Assembly: GCA_040754625.1 (NCBI GenBank)
Contig: JBFMCF010000011.1
Location: forward strand, 1-54,379
Direction of reading: 5' to 3'
Length of the DNA stretch: 54,379 nt
Source: a bacterium
GTDB lineage: Bacteria > JACRDZ01 > JAQUKH01
Under the pieces are notes generated by a model, which was not told the origin of the DNA, made no database searches, and was given only the letters and a program-made list of their open reading frames with translations. How positions within the stretch are numbered: position 1 is the stretch's first letter; each line of letters starts with the position of its first letter. Shown here in pieces: positions 34,268-42,631 of the stretch. Both the position numbers and the translations under genes were made by a program.

Positions 34268-34519
34268 TTAGGCCAGTTTATTATATTCTTCGTGAGTACC
34301 AATCCAATACCAGAGAAGTCCTTTTTCTATTTCAACGGCCATAGCTCGGTATCTATTTCCAATACGTACCGACCAATGTTTACCGACTTTTTTTAAATGC
34401 AGGGATGGATATTCAGAATTATTTTTAAGAATTTCAAAATTTTTATCGGCGAGCCGCTGAATCGATGAGGGTAATTTATTGTAGCAGTTCCAAAAGTCCG
34501 GGCTTGCGAAATGCTTCAT
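34268..34519 (-). CDS. RelE/ParE-superfamily toxin
   Basis: 83 residues. The compact RelE-type pattern is visible: FWNCYNKLPSSIQRLADKNFEIL (helices 1-2), HLKKVGKHWSVRIGNRYRAMAVE (strands with conserved Arg residues) and a C-terminal WYWIGTHEEYNKL, where the His/Glu sits at the usual catalytic end. RelE-type toxins cleave mRNA at the ribosome; ParE-type ones poison gyrase. The start overlaps the antitoxin stop by 4 bases (ATGA). A complete TA pair with its own promoter. Confidence 0.8.
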   Translation of the reverse strand: MKHFASPDFWNCYNKLPSSIQRLADKNFEILKNNSEYPSLHLKKVGKHWSVRIGNRYRAMAVEIEKGLLWYWIGTHEEYNKLA

Positions 34520-34984: not shown

Positions 34985-35647
34985 TTATTGGTTCTCCATA
35001 TGATGCCTGATGTCCTTGCCCAAAACCATGAAAATCACGTCTTCCGCGATGTTGGTGGCGTGGTCGGCAATCCTTTCAAGGTTGCGGGAAATAAGAATAA
35101 AATCAAGCGAAGATAAAACCATTGATGTGTCGTTACGCATTAATTCCTTCAAGTCGTTAAATATTTTGGATTTCAAGTTATCCACTTTATCGTCCGTAAG
35201 CACAACCGCTCTCGCGATTTCCACGTCACGGTTTATAAACGCCTTAAGGCTGTCATGGAGCATCTTTTGCGAGATATTCGCCATATTATCCATATCAGGC
35301 ATGGATTTTAAGTCGGAAATTTCATGCAGTTTTATGCTGTTCTCTGCTATATTAACAGCCTGGTCTCCGATCCTCTCAAGGTCGCTGTTTATTTTCACCG
35401 CGGCCATGATAAACCTCAGGTCAATGGCGATCGGCTGCCTTAACGCTATTACGCGAAGGCACATTTCATCTATTTCAATGTGAAGTTTATTGACCTCTTT
35501 TTCTTTCTGATATACGGCATCTATAAAATTTTCCTTTTTCTTTTTAAGCGAGGCCACGGCAAGATCAATCATTGAACCCGCTATATCACCCATGTATAGT
35601 ATTTTCTCTTTCAGTTCTTTAAGTTCCTCTTCAAAATAACGTTCCAT
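34985..35647 (-). CDS. phoU: Phosphate transport/regulation protein PhoU
   Basis: 220 residues, two three-helix PhoU domains. Metal-binding E/D-rich helices are present in both halves: DLRFIMAAVKINSDLERIGDQAVNIAE (about 76-102) and SLDFILISRNLERIADHATNIAE (about 182-204). PhoU damps Pst uptake and signals phosphate sufficiency to a PhoR-type kinase. Final gene of the nine-gene pst unit. No phoR/phoB homologue is in this window. Confidence 0.93.
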   Translation of the reverse strand: MERYFEEELKELKEKILYMGDIAGSMIDLAVASLKKKKENFIDAVYQKEKEVNKLHIEIDEMCLRVIALRQPIAIDLRFIMAAVKINSDLERIGDQAVNIAENSIKLHEISDLKSMPDMDNMANISQKMLHDSLKAFINRDVEIARAVVLTDDKVDNLKSKIFNDLKELMRNDTSMVLSSLDFILISRNLERIADHATNIAEDVIFMVLGKDIRHHMENQ

Positions 35648-35669
35648 TTTTTATCTCCCTATATTAATT

Positions 35670-35723
35670 GTAGGGGCTTGATTTATCAAGCCCTCTTTTG
35701 GGTTCGATAAATCGAACCCCTAC
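35670..35723. repeat. Double-hairpin REP-like element between pstB1 and phoU
   Basis: Outer arms GTAGGGG and CCCCTAC enclose two near-perfect hairpins: GGGCTTGAT-TT-ATCAAGCCC and GGTTCGAT-AA-ATCGAACC. A second copy is at 39144-39191. The whole can fold into a cruciform or three-way structure. It ends five bases after the pstB1 stop codon. Confidence 0.8.
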
Positions 35724-35727
35724 ATTT

Positions 35728-36483
35728 TTAACCAAACCTTCCTGTTATATAATCCTCCGTCCTTTTGTCCTTAGGGGCCGTGAAAATCCTGTTTGTGTCA
35801 TCAAACTCAACCAGTTCTCCCAAAAGCAAAAATCCGGAATAATCCGAAACCCTCGCGGCCTGCTGCATATTGTGGGTGACAATCACAATAGTATAATCCT
35901 TTTTAAGGTTATTCATCAACTCTTCAATCTTCATAGTGGCAATGGGGTCCAATGTCGAACACGGCTCATCCATTAAAATGACCTCGGGCTCGATAATTAT
36001 AAGCCTCGCGATACACAATTTTTGCCTTTGATCCAGTGATAAATCCAGGGCAGGGCTGTGCAATTTATCTTTTACGTCATCCCAAAGCCACGCGTCTCTT
36101 AAACATTTTTCAATTTTATCATCCCGGACGGATTTCTGCCCGATATTATGCACCCTTAATCCGTACGTCAGATTTTCATAAATGCTTAACGGAAACGGAT
36201 TGGGATGCTGGAAAACCATGCCAATTTTTTTGCGCAATTCCGTCAAGCCGATATTGTCCTGGTAAATGTCTTTTTTGTCCAAAAGAATTTTCCCTGAAAT
36301 TTTTACGCCGTCAATTATATCATTCATCCTGTTTAACGTCCGTAAAAGAGTGGATTTCCCGCAGCCTGAAGGCCCTATCAGGGCGGTAATCCGGTTCTCC
36401 GCGATTTCCATGTCAATATTTTTCAGGGCGTGGAATTCTCCATACCATAGAGACAAATCTTTTGTCTGCATCCGAATGTCCAT
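35728..36483 (-). CDS. pstB: Phosphate ABC transporter ATPase with degenerate signature (PstB1)
   Basis: 251 residues. Walker [10 protein letters not shown] (37-45), Q-loop Gln92 (VFQHPNPFP), Walker B ILMDEP with Glu173, switch His204 ([13 protein letters not shown]) are all standard PstB. The ABC signature is not: where PstB has [13 protein letters not shown] this protein has [13 protein letters not shown] (148-160), losing both glycines. It lies 208 bases downstream of a second, complementary PstB (36692-37444). Likely partner in an asymmetric ATPase dimer for the PstC1/PstA1 permease. Confidence 0.9.
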
Positions 36484-36547
36484 AATTATTCCTTTAAACC
36501 AAAAACAAAATTTAAACAGGTAAATCCTTCAGCATTTAGGATTCAGC

Positions 36548-36667
36548 AAATTGTCAAGCCGCCTGAAAGACAAGGCCGCAGTCGATTTTTACGATACAGG
36601 CATACTTCCTGTATGCCGAGGAGAAAAATCGACGAGAACGCCGTATTTCAGGATGGATTGGCAATTT
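36548..36667. repeat. 120-bp imperfect palindrome (MITE- or REP-like) between two pstB genes
   Basis: Nested inverted arms: AAATTG.CAA..CC..CCTGAAA at 36548-36568 against its complement at 36646-36667; GTCGATTTTT (36581-36590) against AAAAATCGAC (36624-36633); GGCATAC (36599-36605) against GTATGCC (36611-36617). No coding potential. It separates pstB2 from pstB1 within one transcription unit, so the mRNA would carry a long hairpin here. Confidence 0.75.
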
Positions 36668-36691
36668 TGTATTGAAACGTGCAAAAGTAAA

Positions 36692-37444
36692 TCAGCCGAA
36701 CCTTCCCGTTATATAATCATCCGTTCTCTTGTCCTTCGGCACAGTAAAAACCTGTTTGCTTTCACCATATTCTATCAATTCACCCATCAGGAGAAACGCC
36801 ACTTTATCCGCGACGCGCGCGGCCTGCTTTGTGTTATTCGTTACTATTATTATCGTGTATTTTTCCTTCAATCTGAGCATTGCCTCTTCGATCTTCGCTG
36901 TCGAGATCGGATCAAGGCTTGAACATGGTTCATCCAAAAGAATTATCTCCGGCTGCAGCGCGAGCGTTCTTGCTATACACAATCTCTGTTTCTGGCCGCC
37001 CGACAAAGACAGTGCCGACTGGTTAAGCCGGTCTTTGACTTCGTCCCACAAAAACGCCTGCCTCAAACTATGTTCCACCAATTCATCCAGTTTTTTCCTG
37101 TAAACTATCCCGGCAAGCCTCGGCCCGTAGATAATATTTTCATAAATCGATCTCGGCAGCGGCACAGGCTGGGCGAAAACCATCCCCACCCTGCGCCTCA
37201 GATCAGAAACATTCGTATCTTCCGAATATATATCTTTGTCGTCGATATAGACATCGCCTTCTTTTCGCGTGTTATAAGTGGCGTCCTCCAGTCTGTTTAT
37301 CAGCCTTAAAAGTGTTGTCTTCCCGCTTCCCGCCGGCCCGATTATGGCAAGGATCTCATTTTTTGACACTTCAATATTTACTGAATTTAAAACCTTCCTG
37401 TCTTCAAAATAAAAATTCAGATTTTTTATAAGGATTTTGGCCAT
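36692..37444 (-). CDS. pstB: Phosphate ABC transporter ATPase with altered Q- and H-loops (PstB2)
   Basis: 250 residues. Walker A GPAGSGKTT (36-44), perfect signature LSGGQKQRL (147-155) and Walker B ILLDEP with Glu172. The Q-loop reads VFAQPVPLP (Ala91 where Gln is expected) and the switch-region reads VTNNTKQAARVAD (Asn203 in place of the switch His). These changes affect the ATP site built on this subunit's Walker motifs, the same composite site that would receive the degenerate signature of PstB1. Starts one base after pstA1 ends. Confidence 0.9.
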   Translation of the reverse strand: MAKILIKNLNFYFEDRKVLNSVNIEVSKNEILAIIGPAGSGKTTLLRLINRLEDATYNTRKEGDVYIDDKDIYSEDTNVSDLRRRVGMVFAQPVPLPRSIYENIIYGPRLAGIVYRKKLDELVEHSLRQAFLWDEVKDRLNQSALSLSGGQKQRLCIARTLALQPEIILLDEPCSSLDPISTAKIEEAMLRLKEKYTIIIVTNNTKQAARVADKVAFLLMGELIEYGESKQVFTVPKDKRTDDYITGRFG

Positions 37445-38287
37445 TTATTTTCCTTCGATCCTTCTGATAAAACGGTGCATGATCCAGTATGACAAGAAAT
37501 TAATCAATCCTATTGAAATTATAAGAACACTGGCCGTAGCGTACGCGTTTTTTAATGAAATACCTTCTCTTGAAAGAATATAAAAATGCACAGACATCGT
37601 CCTAACTGAATCGAACAGGGAACTCGGCAGGCGAAGAGATGAACCGGCCGTGAATATTACCGCGGCCGTTTCCCCGACACACCGGCCGACACTTAATATT
37701 ATCCCTGTCAAAATTCCCGGCAGCGCCTGCGGGATAACAATGAAAACTATTGTCTGCCATTTAGTCCCTCCAAGCGAATAACTCACCTCTCGCAGAGATT
37801 TTGGAACAGCTTTAATCGCTTCTTCGCTCGTCCTTATAATAGTCGGCAGGACCATAATCGACAGCGTCAGGCCGCCTGAAATAATCGACCAGCCCATTTT
37901 AAGTTTGATAACAAAAAGCACAAAACCGAACAATCCAAACACAATGGAAGGAATGCCAGCGAGGCAGTCAGCCCCGAAACGTATCATCTGAGTAACCCTG
38001 TTTTCCCTGGTATACTCAGTCAAGTAAACCGCCGTCCCGATTCCCAGCGGCCCCGCTATAAAAACCGCCGCGAGGGTAAGCAGTATGGTCCCGGCGATGA
38101 TAGGAAAAATCCCTCCCTCCCTGCCCATACTTCTGGGAAATTCCATAAAAAATTCTTTTGACAAACCGCCGATGCCGTTCTTTAAAATAAAGCCGACAAT
38201 ATAAAAAAGGAGAAAAACCGTGAAAATAGCGAATATCCATAAAAAAAACTTCACTATTTTTTCTATTATATTGTGGTTTACGCTCAT
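37445..38287 (-). CDS. pstA: Phosphate ABC transporter permease PstA1
   Basis: 280 residues, six helices. Family marks: GIGTAVYLTEYTRENR, LAGIPSIVFGLFGFVLF, SGGLTLSIMVLPTIIRTSEEAIKAVPKSLREVSYSLGGTKWQT (the EAA loop that docks to PstB) and GRCVGETAAVIFTAGSS. Forms the channel with PstC1, overlapping its gene by 4 bases. Confidence 0.93.
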   Translation of the reverse strand: MSVNHNIIEKIVKFFLWIFAIFTVFLLFYIVGFILKNGIGGLSKEFFMEFPRSMGREGGIFPIIAGTILLTLAAVFIAGPLGIGTAVYLTEYTRENRVTQMIRFGADCLAGIPSIVFGLFGFVLFVIKLKMGWSIISGGLTLSIMVLPTIIRTSEEAIKAVPKSLREVSYSLGGTKWQTIVFIVIPQALPGILTGIILSVGRCVGETAAVIFTAGSSLRLPSSLFDSVRTMSVHFYILSREGISLKNAYATASVLIISIGLINFLSYWIMHRFIRRIEGK

Positions 38288-39132
38288 CTCCTGACTTTCC
38301 TCTTCGTAAAAATATAGGCCGCCACATTCAATATCATGATTATCACAAATAAAACCATACCCGTTCCGAACAAGGCCTCGCGATGCATGCCTGTCGCGTA
38401 GCCCAATTCCAGGGCGATATTTGAGGTCAATGTCCTGACAGGTTCAAGAACCGAATACGGGATCCGGACGGCGTTGCCGCTTACCATAATGACCGCCATT
38501 GTTTCGCCGACCGCGCGCCCCATCCCCAGGATAACGCTCGCGATTATGCCGGATTTCGCCGCGGGAATAATGACCATATAAACCGACTGCCATCTTGTCG
38601 CCCCCAATGCCAGCGACCCTTCAAGATAGGATTTAGGCACCGCTTGTATGGCATCCAGGGAAATACTTATAACCGTGGGAAGGATCATTATCGCGAGAAC
38701 CATGCTTCCCGCGAGGACCGAAAGCCCCGGGCCCCCCAGATATTCCCGGATCAGCGGCGCGAGAATCACAACACCAATGAAACCATATACCACGGACGGG
38801 ATCCCCGCGAGAAGTTCTATCGCGGGTTTTAATATTCTTGCTATTTTTTTAGGGCAGAATTCCGCGAGAAAAATACTGACAAAAAGGCTTAACGGCACAC
38901 CAATGACAAGGGCCCCTATCGTGACCCACATCGACCCTATGATCATGCTGAACAATCCGAATTGTTTCTGGCCCGGCGCCCATTCAGGCGAAAAAATGAA
39001 TTTGCCAAACCCTATCTTAAGAAATATGCCCATACCCTCCTTGAAGATAAACACAGTTATCAATCCAAGTGAAAATAAGGCGGAACACGCGATTAATAAA
39101 AATATTTTTTCAATCGATTTTTCCCTGTTCAT
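38284..39132 (-). CDS. pstC: Phosphate ABC transporter permease PstC1
   Basis: 282 residues, six helices. VPLSLFVSIFLAEFCP, LAGIPSVVYGFIGVVIL, the EAA loop LPTVISISLDAIQAVPKSYLEGSLALGATRWQS and GMGRAVGETMAVIMVSGNA are standard PstC features. Located just after a REP-like element and pstS1. Confidence 0.93.
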   Translation of the reverse strand: MNREKSIEKIFLLIACSALFSLGLITVFIFKEGMGIFLKIGFGKFIFSPEWAPGQKQFGLFSMIIGSMWVTIGALVIGVPLSLFVSIFLAEFCPKKIARILKPAIELLAGIPSVVYGFIGVVILAPLIREYLGGPGLSVLAGSMVLAIMILPTVISISLDAIQAVPKSYLEGSLALGATRWQSVYMVIIPAAKSGIIASVILGMGRAVGETMAVIMVSGNAVRIPYSVLEPVRTLTSNIALELGYATGMHREALFGTGMVLFVIIMILNVAAYIFTKRKVRR

Positions 39133-39143
39133 GATATTTATTC

Positions 39144-39191
39144 GTAGGGGCTTGATTTATCAAGCCCGGGTTCGATAAATCGAATCCCTAC
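39144..39191. repeat. Double-hairpin REP-like element between pstS1 and pstC1
   Basis: Second copy of the 35670-35723 element: GTAGGGGCTTGATTTATCAAGCCC joined directly to GGGTTCGATAAATCGAATCCCTAC. Its right end supplies the TAG stop codon of pstS1 (39188-39190 on minus), so the element has invaded exactly at the 3' end of the gene. Confidence 0.8.
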
Positions 39192-39991
39192 ATTAAATGT
39201 TTTACCGCGATTAATCCTTCCTTCTCCATAAATTCCTGGCCCTCATCCGACAGGACAAAATCCACAAAATCCTTAGCGTCCTTTTTTAACTCTCCGGTAT
39301 AAACAAAAAGGAACGGCCGCATAAAATTATATTTTTTTTCTTTCACAGCCGCCCTGTCGGGCAAAATCCCGTCAATTTTTATCGCCTTCACATCCTTGTC
39401 CACAAGCCCTAAAGAAATATACGCGACCGACCATGGGTCCGCTTTTACGATTTCCCTGACTGATCCATTGGAATCCTGGACCATACAGGCGTTTGATATT
39501 GGAATTTCTTTCATCACCAGTTCCTGGAACGCGCCGCGTGTACCTGAACCGTCCTCGCGGGTAATCGCGTTAATCTCCTTGTCTTCCCCGCCCAGTTCCT
39601 TCCAGTTTAAAATTTTACGGCTGAAAATTTTTCTGATATCTTCAAGCGAGATATTTTCAATTTTATTCCGCGGGTTGAGTATCACGATAACGGCATCGTA
39701 GGCTATCGGAACAATTTTAAGTTCTTTTTCCTCTTCAGCGCTTAAATGCCTTGAGGACATCCCGATATCGGCTGTTCCGCATAACGCAGACTGGATCCCG
39801 GCGCTGGATCCGCCCCCCTGGACATTGATTTCAACCGTTTTGTGTTTCTGAGAATAGGCCTCTTCCAAACCCTCCACAAAAGGCTGGACGGAGGTGGATC
39901 CGGCTATTACCAGGGCCTTGCCGGCGCCGCCTTTATCGCAGGAAATAAATGGCAGGACAAAAAGAATTATATAAAAATATTTCTTCAACAT
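39188..39991 (-). CDS. pstS: Phosphate-binding lipoprotein PstS1
   Basis: 267 residues from the start at 39991, giving a normal lipoprotein leader (MLKKYFYIILFVLPFISC). The frame is open to 40123, but that part runs back through the end of pstB3. Binding-protein marks: IAGSTSVQPFVEGLEE, VQGGGSSAGIQSALCGTADIGMSSR, TREDGSGTRGAFQELVM. A consensus promoter ends 7 bases before the ATG and no Shine-Dalgarno is visible, so the message may be leaderless. The stop codon lies inside the REP-like element at 39144-39191. Confidence 0.88.
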   Translation of the reverse strand: MLKKYFYIILFVLPFISCDKGGAGKALVIAGSTSVQPFVEGLEEAYSQKHKTVEINVQGGGSSAGIQSALCGTADIGMSSRHLSAEEEKELKIVPIAYDAVIVILNPRNKIENISLEDIRKIFSRKILNWKELGGEDKEINAITREDGSGTRGAFQELVMKEIPISNACMVQDSNGSVREIVKADPWSVAYISLGLVDKDVKAIKIDGILPDRAAVKEKKYNFMRPFLFVYTGELKKDAKDFVDFVLSDEGQEFMEKEGLIAVKHLM

Positions 39992-39998
39992 TTTGAGG

Positions 39999-40027
39999 AT
40001 TATACCATTTAAGTTACAAGGTGTCAA
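39999..40027 (-). promoter_or_regulatory. Near-perfect sigma70 promoter directly upstream of pstS1
   Basis: On minus: TTGACA (40027-40022), 17-base spacer, TATAAT (40004-39999). Both hexamers are exact consensus. Only seven bases separate the -10 from the ATG at 39991, predicting transcription start at or next to the start codon. It lets pstS1 be made independently of the upstream Pho-box promoter. Confidence 0.75.
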
Positions 40028-40031
40028 AACC

Positions 40032-40790
40032 TTACCCAAATCTTCCTGTGATATACGCCTCGGTTTTTTTATCTTTGGGATTTGTAAATATTTCCCGGGT
40101 TTTGCCGAATTCAACCAACTCACCTAAGAGAAAAAACGCCGTCCAATCGGAAACACGGGCCGCCTGCTGCATATTATGAGTAACTATCACAATTGTATAA
40201 TTTTGTTTCAGGTGAAGAATCAATTCTTCTATTTTTGTGGTGGAAATGGGATCAAGCGCCGAACACGGCTCATCAAACAGGATGACCTCCGGCTTGACCG
40301 CAAGGGCCCTCGCGATACAAAGCCTTTGCTGCTGCCCTCCCGAAAGGCTCATGCCGGGAGCTTTAAGCTTATCCTTAACTTCATCCCACAGTGCCGCTCT
40401 TTTCAGGGATTCTTCCACAATTTCATCCAGATAAGATTTTTTGCTGATACCGTTTAATTTTAAGCCGACAGAAACATTTCCATAGATGGAAAGCGCGGGA
40501 AACGGGGTAGGTTTTTGAAAAACCATCCCGACTTTTTGCCGAAGCTCAATCGGATCGACATCCCGGTCATAAATATTTTTATCATCAAGCAGGACCTCAC
40601 CATTGACGCTGGTATCCGGTATAACCTCATGCATCCTGTTTAAACAGCGTATAAAAGTGGATTTGCCGCATCCTGAAGGGCCTATAATCGCGGTGGCAAC
40701 TCTTTCCTCGATGTTCATGTTTATATTTTTTACAGCATGAACTTTGCCAAAATAGGCATTCAGATTTTTAGTTATTATTTTGTTTGTCAT
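40032..40790 (-). CDS. pstB: Phosphate ABC transporter ATPase PstB3 (canonical)
   Basis: 252 residues with all motifs intact: [10 protein letters not shown]-loop [34 protein letters not shown] and [13 protein letters not shown]. Follows pstA2 after 50 bases and so probably powers the PstC2/PstA2 permease as a homodimer. Contrast with the altered PstB1/PstB2 pair downstream. Confidence 0.94.
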
Positions 40791-40840: not shown

Positions 40841-41692
40841 CTATTTATATTTCTGCCTTGTAACAATCCTGCTTGTTAAACTTATCACAAAAGTCAATCC
40901 AATAAGCACAAGCGCCCCCGCCCATGCCTGCCTCTGCCAGTCATCAAAAGGAGAGATAGCGTAAACAAATATCTGCAAAGGAAGCGCGGCTATCGGCTGT
41001 GTCACTCCCTGGTGCCAGAACCTGTTCCCGAAAGCGGTAAATAAAAGCGGGGCCGTCTCTCCGAAAATCCGGGCAACGGACAGCATTATCCCTGTAATTA
41101 TGCCAGGCATCGCCGTACTCAGAATTATTCTTATAGTGGTTTTAAACCGGTTTATTCCAAGCGCCAGAGATGCCTCGCGCAAATCATGCGGAACCATCCG
41201 GGCAGATTCTTCCGTGGTTCGCATTATTGTGGGTATCATTATCACTCCCAAAGCGAACGCGCCGCTTAGCGCTGAAAAACTTTTTAAAGGCCGGACCAAA
41301 AGAGAGTATGCAAAAATGCCGATAACAATGGAAGGCACCCCGCTTAACACATCCGCCGAAAATCTGATTAAAATCCCAAGTTTTTTTGTACTGAATTCCG
41401 AAAGGTATAATCCTCCCAACACTCCTGCCGGTATCGCCCATAGAGACGCCATACCTGTTAATATCAGGCTTCCAATAATGGCATTAGCCATTCCCCCTCC
41501 CGGCTCTCCAGCGGGTTTTGGAAGCTGTGTGAAAAAATCAATATTTATGCTCGCGATTCCCTTTGAAATAACATAGACAAAAATACTGATTAATGGAACT
41601 AAAACAATCAGAGCGCAGAAAATTGTAAGCGCCCTCATTGCCTTATCCGTTATTTTTCTTTTTAAATAATTTTTCATTTTTACTTTTACCAC
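40841..41692 (-). CDS. pstA: Phosphate ABC transporter permease PstA2
   Basis: 283 residues. GGLYLSEFSTKKLG, LSGVPSIVIGIFAYSLLV, the EAA loop IPTIMRTTEESARMVPHDLREASLALGINRFKT and ARIFGETAPLLFTAFGN identify PstA. Second permease half of the pstC2A2B3 set; 12 bases separate it from pstC2. Confidence 0.93.
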   Translation of the reverse strand: MVKVKMKNYLKRKITDKAMRALTIFCALIVLVPLISIFVYVISKGIASINIDFFTQLPKPAGEPGGGMANAIIGSLILTGMASLWAIPAGVLGGLYLSEFSTKKLGILIRFSADVLSGVPSIVIGIFAYSLLVRPLKSFSALSGAFALGVIMIPTIMRTTEESARMVPHDLREASLALGINRFKTTIRIILSTAMPGIITGIMLSVARIFGETAPLLFTAFGNRFWHQGVTQPIAALPLQIFVYAISPFDDWQRQAWAGALVLIGLTFVISLTSRIVTRQKYK

Positions 41693-41704: not shown

Positions 41705-42631
41705 TCATTGCCAACTTGCTTTATTTGTTGTGGACCATACTAAAAACCGCGCGATAATATTTAAAAATAATGTCAGAACAAAAAGAATCAGCCCTATTTC
41801 CATCAATGTGGACACATACAAATCGCTCGTCGCTTCAGTAAACTCATTCGCGATTACTGAAGACATTGTGGCTGCCGGAGCAAACAGGGAAAGAGAAATT
41901 TCCGGACGGTTTCCTATAAGCATAGTAACAGCCATAGTCTCACCAAGAGCGCGTCCCAGCCCCAATATCACCGCGCCAAGTACCCCGTTTCTGCTGTATT
42001 TCAGCACGGCTAATTTTATTGTTTCCCATCTTGTCGCGCCAAGCGCCAGCGCCGCTTCGCGCTGTGAATGCGGCACCGCCATAAATATGTCCCTTGAAAC
42101 AGATGAAATGGTAGGGATAATCATGATACTCAGGATAATTCCCGCGGCCATCATTCCCACGCCATAAATGTCCCCCCGGAAAAAAGGCAGAAATCCAAAA
42201 TATTTTTCGAAAAACGGTTGTATTGTTTCCCTTAAGAGCGGCACCAGCACAAAAATCCCCCATAAACCATAGATCACGCTGGGAATCGCCGCCAGCAGTT
42301 CAACCAGGAAACTCAAAGGCTGTCGTATTTTAGAAGGCGCGAGTTCGGAAAGAAAAATAGCGGTCCCTAAAGAAATCGGCACCGCTATGATTAAAGCGAG
42401 AAAAGAAGACACAAGGGTCCCCCAGATAAATGTCAGCGCCCCGAAATCTTCCTGGACAGGGTCCCACTTTGAATTAAACAAAAATGGAAGCTGGAATTTT
42501 TTAACCGCGGGAAGCGACTCTTTTATCAATATAAAGAATATGAGAATGGCAAAAGCGGCCACGGAAAAAGCCAAAACCGCGGAGAAATTTTTAAATAGAA
42601 AATCGGTTAACCTCGTTCTTTTCACGGCCAT
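41705..42631 (-). CDS. pstC: Phosphate ABC transporter permease PstC2
   Basis: 308 residues, six helices. VPISLGTAIFLSELAPSKIR, LLAAIPSVIYGLWGIFVLVPLL, IPTISSVSRDIFMAVPHSQREAALALGATRWET and GLGRALGETMAVTMLIGN are PstC features. The ATG at 42631 is only one base after the -10 (TATACT) of the Pho-box promoter. The GTG at codon 3 (42625) lies seven bases after that -10, the same distance as the pstS1 start from its -10, so translation may begin at GTG on a leaderless message. First gene of the nine-gene pst/phoU unit. Confidence 0.92.
   Translation of the reverse strand: MAVKRTRLTDFLFKNFSAVLAFSVAAFAILIFFILIKESLPAVKKFQLPFLFNSKWDPVQEDFGALTFIWGTLVSSFLALIIAVPISLGTAIFLSELAPSKIRQPLSFLVELLAAIPSVIYGLWGIFVLVPLLRETIQPFFEKYFGFLPFFRGDIYGVGMMAAGIILSIMIIPTISSVSRDIFMAVPHSQREAALALGATRWETIKLAVLKYSRNGVLGAVILGLGRALGETMAVTMLIGNRPEISLSLFAPAATMSSVIANEFTEATSDLYVSTLMEIGLILFVLTLFLNIIARFLVWSTTNKASWQ

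Follow-up and report, generated by a model that had tools for sequence, protein, structure and literature searches.

Can two adjacent PstB proteins, each lacking part of the catalytic motifs of an ABC ATPase, together provide the two nucleotide binding domains (NBDs) of one phosphate importer? The question is raised by a tandem of pstB genes in a bacterial stretch of DNA of 54,379 nucleotides (in the following denoted as the window). The first gene, pstB_N, encodes an Asn-type PstB and the second, pstB_S, its partner (Table 1). Judging from their sequences, we consider it probable (about 0.85) that PstB_N and PstB_S form an obligate heterodimer on PstA/PstC in which one composite ATP site is canonical and the other degenerate.

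Table 1. Genes and diagnostic codons of the Pst cluster in the window.
Feature	Position	Strand	Remarks
pstB_N (Asn-type PstB)	36692..37444	-	250 aa; Ala91, Asn203, K206; PstB2 of the sequence-only reading
pstB_S (partner PstB)	35728..36483	-	251 aa; LSLDQ signature; PstB1 of the sequence-only reading
pstB_N Ala91 codon	37172..37174	-	Q-loop Gln to Ala
pstB_N Asn203 codon	36836..36838	-	switch His to Asn
pstB_S LSLDQ signature	36028..36042	-	residues 148-152; Asp151 at the second Gly position
pstA	37445..38287	-	permease, directly upstream of pstB_N
pstC	38284..39132	-	permease
pstS	about 39188..40027	-	phosphate-binding lipoprotein; start codon approximate
phoU	34985..35647	-	downstream of the pstB_N/pstB_S pair
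third pstB of the cluster	40032..40790	-	fully canonical; second Pst set; internal control
pstA2	40841-41692		second Pst set
pstC2	41705-42631		second Pst set

On the minus strand, the genes of the cluster are arranged in the order pstC2, pstA2, canonical pstB, pstS-pstC-pstA-pstB_N-pstB_S-phoU, placing the pair in a pstSCA-phoU operon setting. The same setting is typical of its relatives: the gene upstream of the N-type is pstA in 101 of the 103 testable relatives, and phoU is found downstream, within 1.5 kb of the pair, in 64 of 76. The two pstB genes of the window are separated by a spacer of 208 bp (36484-36691), the gap in relatives being typically about 15 bp. The spacer is single-copy in the genome and imperfectly palindromic by eye; a repeat-search tool found no inverted repeat within it. 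Two copies of a dispersed intergenic element of about 65-73 bp lie within the pst cluster (35655-35727 and 39134-39194), with three further genomic locations elsewhere, and an ORF of 83 aa with a ParE-like toxin domain is located near phoU (34268-34519, minus strand). The genome also contains a fourth PstB-like gene (L191, G000:C111), which belongs to the same separate subfamily as L187, L324 and L326. This subfamily is characterized by the Q-loop LSQ[RK]P, the signature LS[ILV]GQ and the Walker B motif VILGDEP or IILGDEP, with Q, second Gly and His all intact.

Both proteins of the tandem readily pass as PstB. Their scores against the curated PstB family TIGR00972 are 359.4 and 381.3 bits, above the curated cut-off of 343.2 bits, and the closest solved relative of the N-type is a PstB (E = 2.9e-101). 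Homology to a solved PstB at E about 1e-101 already fixes the PstB fold of the pair. The full catalytic motif set is present in neither subunit. PstB_N (Walker A GPAGSGKT, Q-loop VFAQP, signature LSGGQ at residues 147-151, Walker B LLDEP, switch loop VTNNTK) retains an intact LSGGQ and the Walker B Glu, although Ala replaces the Q-loop Gln and Asn the switch His. PstB_S retains Walker A, Q-loop, Walker B (LMDEP) and His (switch loop VTHNMQ), and deviates in its LSLDQ signature. Hence Q and H are missing in one subunit and the signature in the other. The residues, the numbering and the positions of both minus-strand ORFs are as the sequence-only reading had given them.

That reading had further assigned all three changes to one composite site, leaving the other canonical, and the same partition is found in a set of 119 N-type, 106 S-type and 140 canonical full-length proteins, in which the motifs lost and kept match one composite site exactly. 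N-types keep SGGQ in 119 of 119 proteins, and S-types have an intact A-loop, Walker A, Q and H in 106 of 106. The N-type Q-loop residue is A (111), S (4), D (3) or T (1) and never Gln, the switch residue is Asn throughout (119/119), and the fourth signature position of the S-type, in place of Gly, is E (91), D (13) or Y (2); these N-type Q/H columns and the S-type Gly4 column are partly defining or ascertained, the other columns being independent of how the proteins were collected. Beyond these, Gly4 of Walker A is replaced by N, S, K, R, Q or H in 90 of the 119 N-types, an additional damage that falls on the same degenerate site as the Q-loop, switch and signature changes. N-types also share a Lys three residues past the switch Asn (H+3) and, in 113 of 119, a D-loop Gly. 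All deviations are located on one composite site and the other is complete. Both subunits keep the Walker A Lys and the Walker B Asp/Glu without exception, including the catalytic Glu in 119 of 119 N-types; a loss of this Glu in the degenerate half, as is usual though not universal in exporters (PMC7544095), is not observed. The combinations of N-type Walker A residue and S-type signature residue (52 N-E, 8 G-D, 8 G-E) are suggestive but represent only 2-6 independent changes. In the permeases, the coupling-helix region of PstA tends to read VSLSLG in pair operons, for example in the window, and ASLALG in canonical permeases, the comparison drawing on a mixed set; the VSLSLG variant may match the altered Q-loop of PstB_N.

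We next consider whether either subunit occurs without the other. In a first set of 60 relatives, the same arrangement was found in the same genus (G001), the same phylum and two other phyla, and every solitary PstB that was read was canonical. When about 85,000 species genomes are scanned with a DNA pattern for the switch loop of Asn-types, at least 114 loci are detected. The matches listed, together with the first set of relatives, make up 118 Asn-types. Among these, 100 have a readable adjacent downstream partner, whose second signature Gly is Glu, Asp or Tyr in 100 of 100 cases (LSLEQ 43, LTLEQ 10, LPLDQ 9, and others), so that intact partner signatures, one outcome that would have spoken against the proposal, number zero. 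For 6 the partner signature lies beyond the contig end or is disrupted by a frameshift; 8 are too near a contig edge to tell. Three (L154, L156 and L157, all in Endomicrobia-related genomes) have a split tandem with a broken-signature partner elsewhere in the genome, in two of them beside phoU. The remaining one (L090, Spirochaeta) keeps Q and LSGGQ, clusters with canonical PstBs in the tree and is, by its residues, a point variant of an ordinary PstB with a lone His-to-Asn change. The suggestion that Asn-types often stand alone is thus rejected: among the matches listed only L090 truly does, and as it belongs to the canonical PstBs, the two subunits of the pair are always found together.

More than 15 named phyla contain the pair; among the carriers are Omnitrophota, Elusimicrobiota, Planctomycetota, Acidobacteriota/Aminicenantes, Verrucomicrobiota, Lentisphaerota, Spirochaetota, WOR-3 lineages, Ignavibacteriota and Myxococcota. 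In an independent sample of 386 family-spread genomes the Asn-type pattern matches 17 genomes and a reversed control pattern none; the broken-signature partner is adjacent in 16 of the 17 and unlinked in the 17th. Reciprocally, a search of the same genomes with an S-type profile (A2) finds the Asn-type in 19 of 19 genomes with a broken-signature PstB, a count that covers the broken-signature PstBs read, the lower-scoring PstBs having been read in part. Two Asn-types missed by the DNA pattern (G156 and G286) were recovered by this search. Among about 100 pairs no natural N-S fusion gene was seen. A very divergent version of the pair, likewise complementary, occurs in G042 (L186/L329) and G182 (L328), with N-like motifs VLPLP or VAPLP, LCLDEF, a D-loop IAVDP or IAIDP and LVTNLVQ, and a partner signature LQLEQ. 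G042 harbors an additional third degenerate PstB with LSNGQ, EQLDA and FVTNKRR.

Solitary PstBs further down the same ranking of the 386 genomes provide a control: Q, signature and His are intact in 80 of 80, and none of the 80 is part of a tandem. Chance and sequencing or assembly error are ruled out by the conservation across genomes and the absence of control-pattern matches. Nor does tandem duplication always bring such changes, since both copies are intact in the ordinary tandem pairs L303 and L314 as well as in E. faecalis; duplication alone does not produce the pattern. In the tree, the N-types form one clade (support 100) and the S-types another (support 94), and the divergent pair of G042 sorts into the same two clades. 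The mirror-tree correlation between N and S (r = 0.78) is what co-inheritance in one operon would produce in any case. Purifying selection on both genes is strong, with a dN/dS of about 0.03-0.04 between the window and G001 and of 0.03-0.09 overall, the unlinked split pair included.

These data bear on the view that the pair consists of decaying duplicates whose motif changes reflect drift or artefacts of metagenome assembly. Many of the source genomes are indeed metagenome-assembled, and a few partners are frameshifted or incomplete. Against this stand the low dN/dS values, changes that are near-invariant across phyla (Q-loop A 111/119, H+3 K 119/119, signature E/D 104/106) and the presence of the pair in the closed genome of Sorangium cellulosum So0157-2 (Myxococcota, L074). 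Pseudogene drift is ruled out by dN/dS together with motif invariance, and the view as a whole retains hardly any probability.

For the heterodimer we propose the following arrangement. PstB_N and PstB_S would be the two NBDs of one Pst importer, oriented head-to-tail on PstA/PstC. Site II, the canonical catalytic site, would consist of Walker A, Walker B, Q and H of PstB_S facing the LSGGQ of PstB_N. Site I would be degenerate, with Walker A, the Q-to-A and the H-to-N changes of PstB_N facing the L-x-x-E/D-Q signature of PstB_S. The acidic residue at the second signature Gly position resembles the G551D change of CFTR. By analogy with TAP, TM287/288 and Pdr5, Site I is most likely occupied by ATP that it hydrolyses little or not at all, and no Q-loop glutamine would relay its state to the membrane; Site II would hydrolyse one ATP in each transport cycle. 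In all, ATP is most likely burned at only one site. The likeness to asymmetric ABC heterodimers of the TAP or TM287/288 type, which the sequence-only reading had drawn, is supported by the motif pattern.

A heterodimer in which both sites hydrolyse is conceivable but unlikely. The motif changes would then retune rates or coupling, for example at the Q-loop contact with PstA. As the catalytic Glu is kept in the N-type, slow hydrolysis at Site I could still take place, and the invariant Lys of Walker A and Asp/Glu of Walker B in both subunits are in keeping with activity at both sites. Some H-loop Asn substitutions are functional in MRP1, where transport stayed close to wild type with an Asn in the H-loop of the canonical site (PMC7756269), so the His-to-Asn change alone need not disable a site. 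However, Site I lacks the Q-loop Gln and the switch His on one face and carries an acidic residue at the second signature Gly on the other, Walker A Gly4 is lost too in 76% of the N-types, and the analogous LNVEQ belongs to the degenerate site of Pdr5 (PMC7756269).

Alternatively, the two proteins might not pair at all, forming homodimers or pairing with the canonical PstB of another Pst set, such that one transports and the other signals via PhoU. A canonical PstB is also present in the genome of the window and in several others, the tandem canonical PstBs of E. faecalis have non-overlapping roles (PMC12096839), and in two Endomicrobia genomes pstB_S is located beside phoU and pstB_N beside pstSCA. 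Yet at the thresholds used no other PstB is found in G059 (99% complete), G041, G061, G062, G064 and G066, and any Pst activity in such genomes has to come from the pair. Since a homodimer of PstB_N or of PstB_S would be defective at both sites, one Pst transporter there would need to operate with such a dimer. A lack of pairing also fails to explain why the two co-occur strictly 1:1 and why their motifs are partitioned in a complementary way, and we regard it as quite improbable.

With an obligate heterodimer as the preferred reading, the annotation of both genes is to be corrected: as ordinary 'PstB' entries they mask that neither product likely works alone. A possible advantage is a matter of speculation; it might lie in ATP economy, that is, a lower ATP cost per phosphate for energy-limited anaerobes, or in an asymmetric docking face for PhoU. 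More broadly, and with less confidence than the heterodimer itself, we lean towards viewing the pair as an ancient Pst class of single origin, spread over many phyla, with an obligate asymmetric NBD pair that would spend one ATP per phosphate. It would be the first asymmetric two-gene NBD pair recognised in phosphate importers. Its degenerate site would retain the catalytic Glu but lack the Gln of the Q-loop, the His of the switch and the signature Gly on the opposite face. In the open literature, subscription journals and preprints aside, we came upon no Pst system described as having a degenerate site, and no paper on a PstSCAB cryo-EM structure. The pair version of Pst is widespread and apparently undescribed. 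Why many ABC transporters keep one impaired ATP site is a question studied almost entirely in exporters. In the pair, the same solution turns up in an importer that is simple, has its NBDs on separate subunits, transports a well-defined substrate and has canonical, symmetric sisters, some of them encoded in one cluster with it. Direct comparison can therefore address what the second site and PhoU contribute and how many ATPs each substrate costs.

Several known systems resemble the pair in part. Heterodimeric NBDs are known in Opp/Dpp (DppDF) and ECF systems. The canonical E. coli-type Pst (solved as 9k3s and 9k3x, with two PstB chains per entry) shares the operon, the TIGR00972 family, the transmembrane domains and PhoU, but has two identical intact NBDs, in contrast to the non-identical NBDs with complementary defects described here. 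The sequence-only reading had taken Pst importers to be homodimers. This is true of canonical Pst, but 'always' is too strong, because degenerate sites are known in RbsA and NupO and the B. subtilis transporter has been modelled as a PstBA/PstBB heterodimer (PMC11466899). The tandem PstB1/PstB2 of Firmicutes (E. faecalis; B. subtilis PstBA/PstBB) are likewise adjacent genes in a pst-phoU operon, and those of E. faecalis are intact (PMC12096839), unlike pstB_N and pstB_S. In the heterodimeric exporters TAP1/2, TM287/288 and BmrCD, and in Pdr5, the defects are likewise confined to one composite site, with an L-x-x-E-Q signature (LNVEQ) also in Pdr5 (PMC7756269). The pair differs from these in being a binding-protein-dependent importer that keeps the catalytic Glu in the degenerate half and has lost the Q-loop Gln. 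RbsA and NupO are, like the pair, importers with one degenerate ATP site (PMC11466899), but they are type II systems in which a single chain carries both NBDs and its second half lacks the Walker A Lys, whereas the pair consists of separate NBD genes, is part of Pst and has lost other residues. Degenerate sites are thus established in exporters and described in RbsA and NupO; their probable occurrence in Pst would be the new part.
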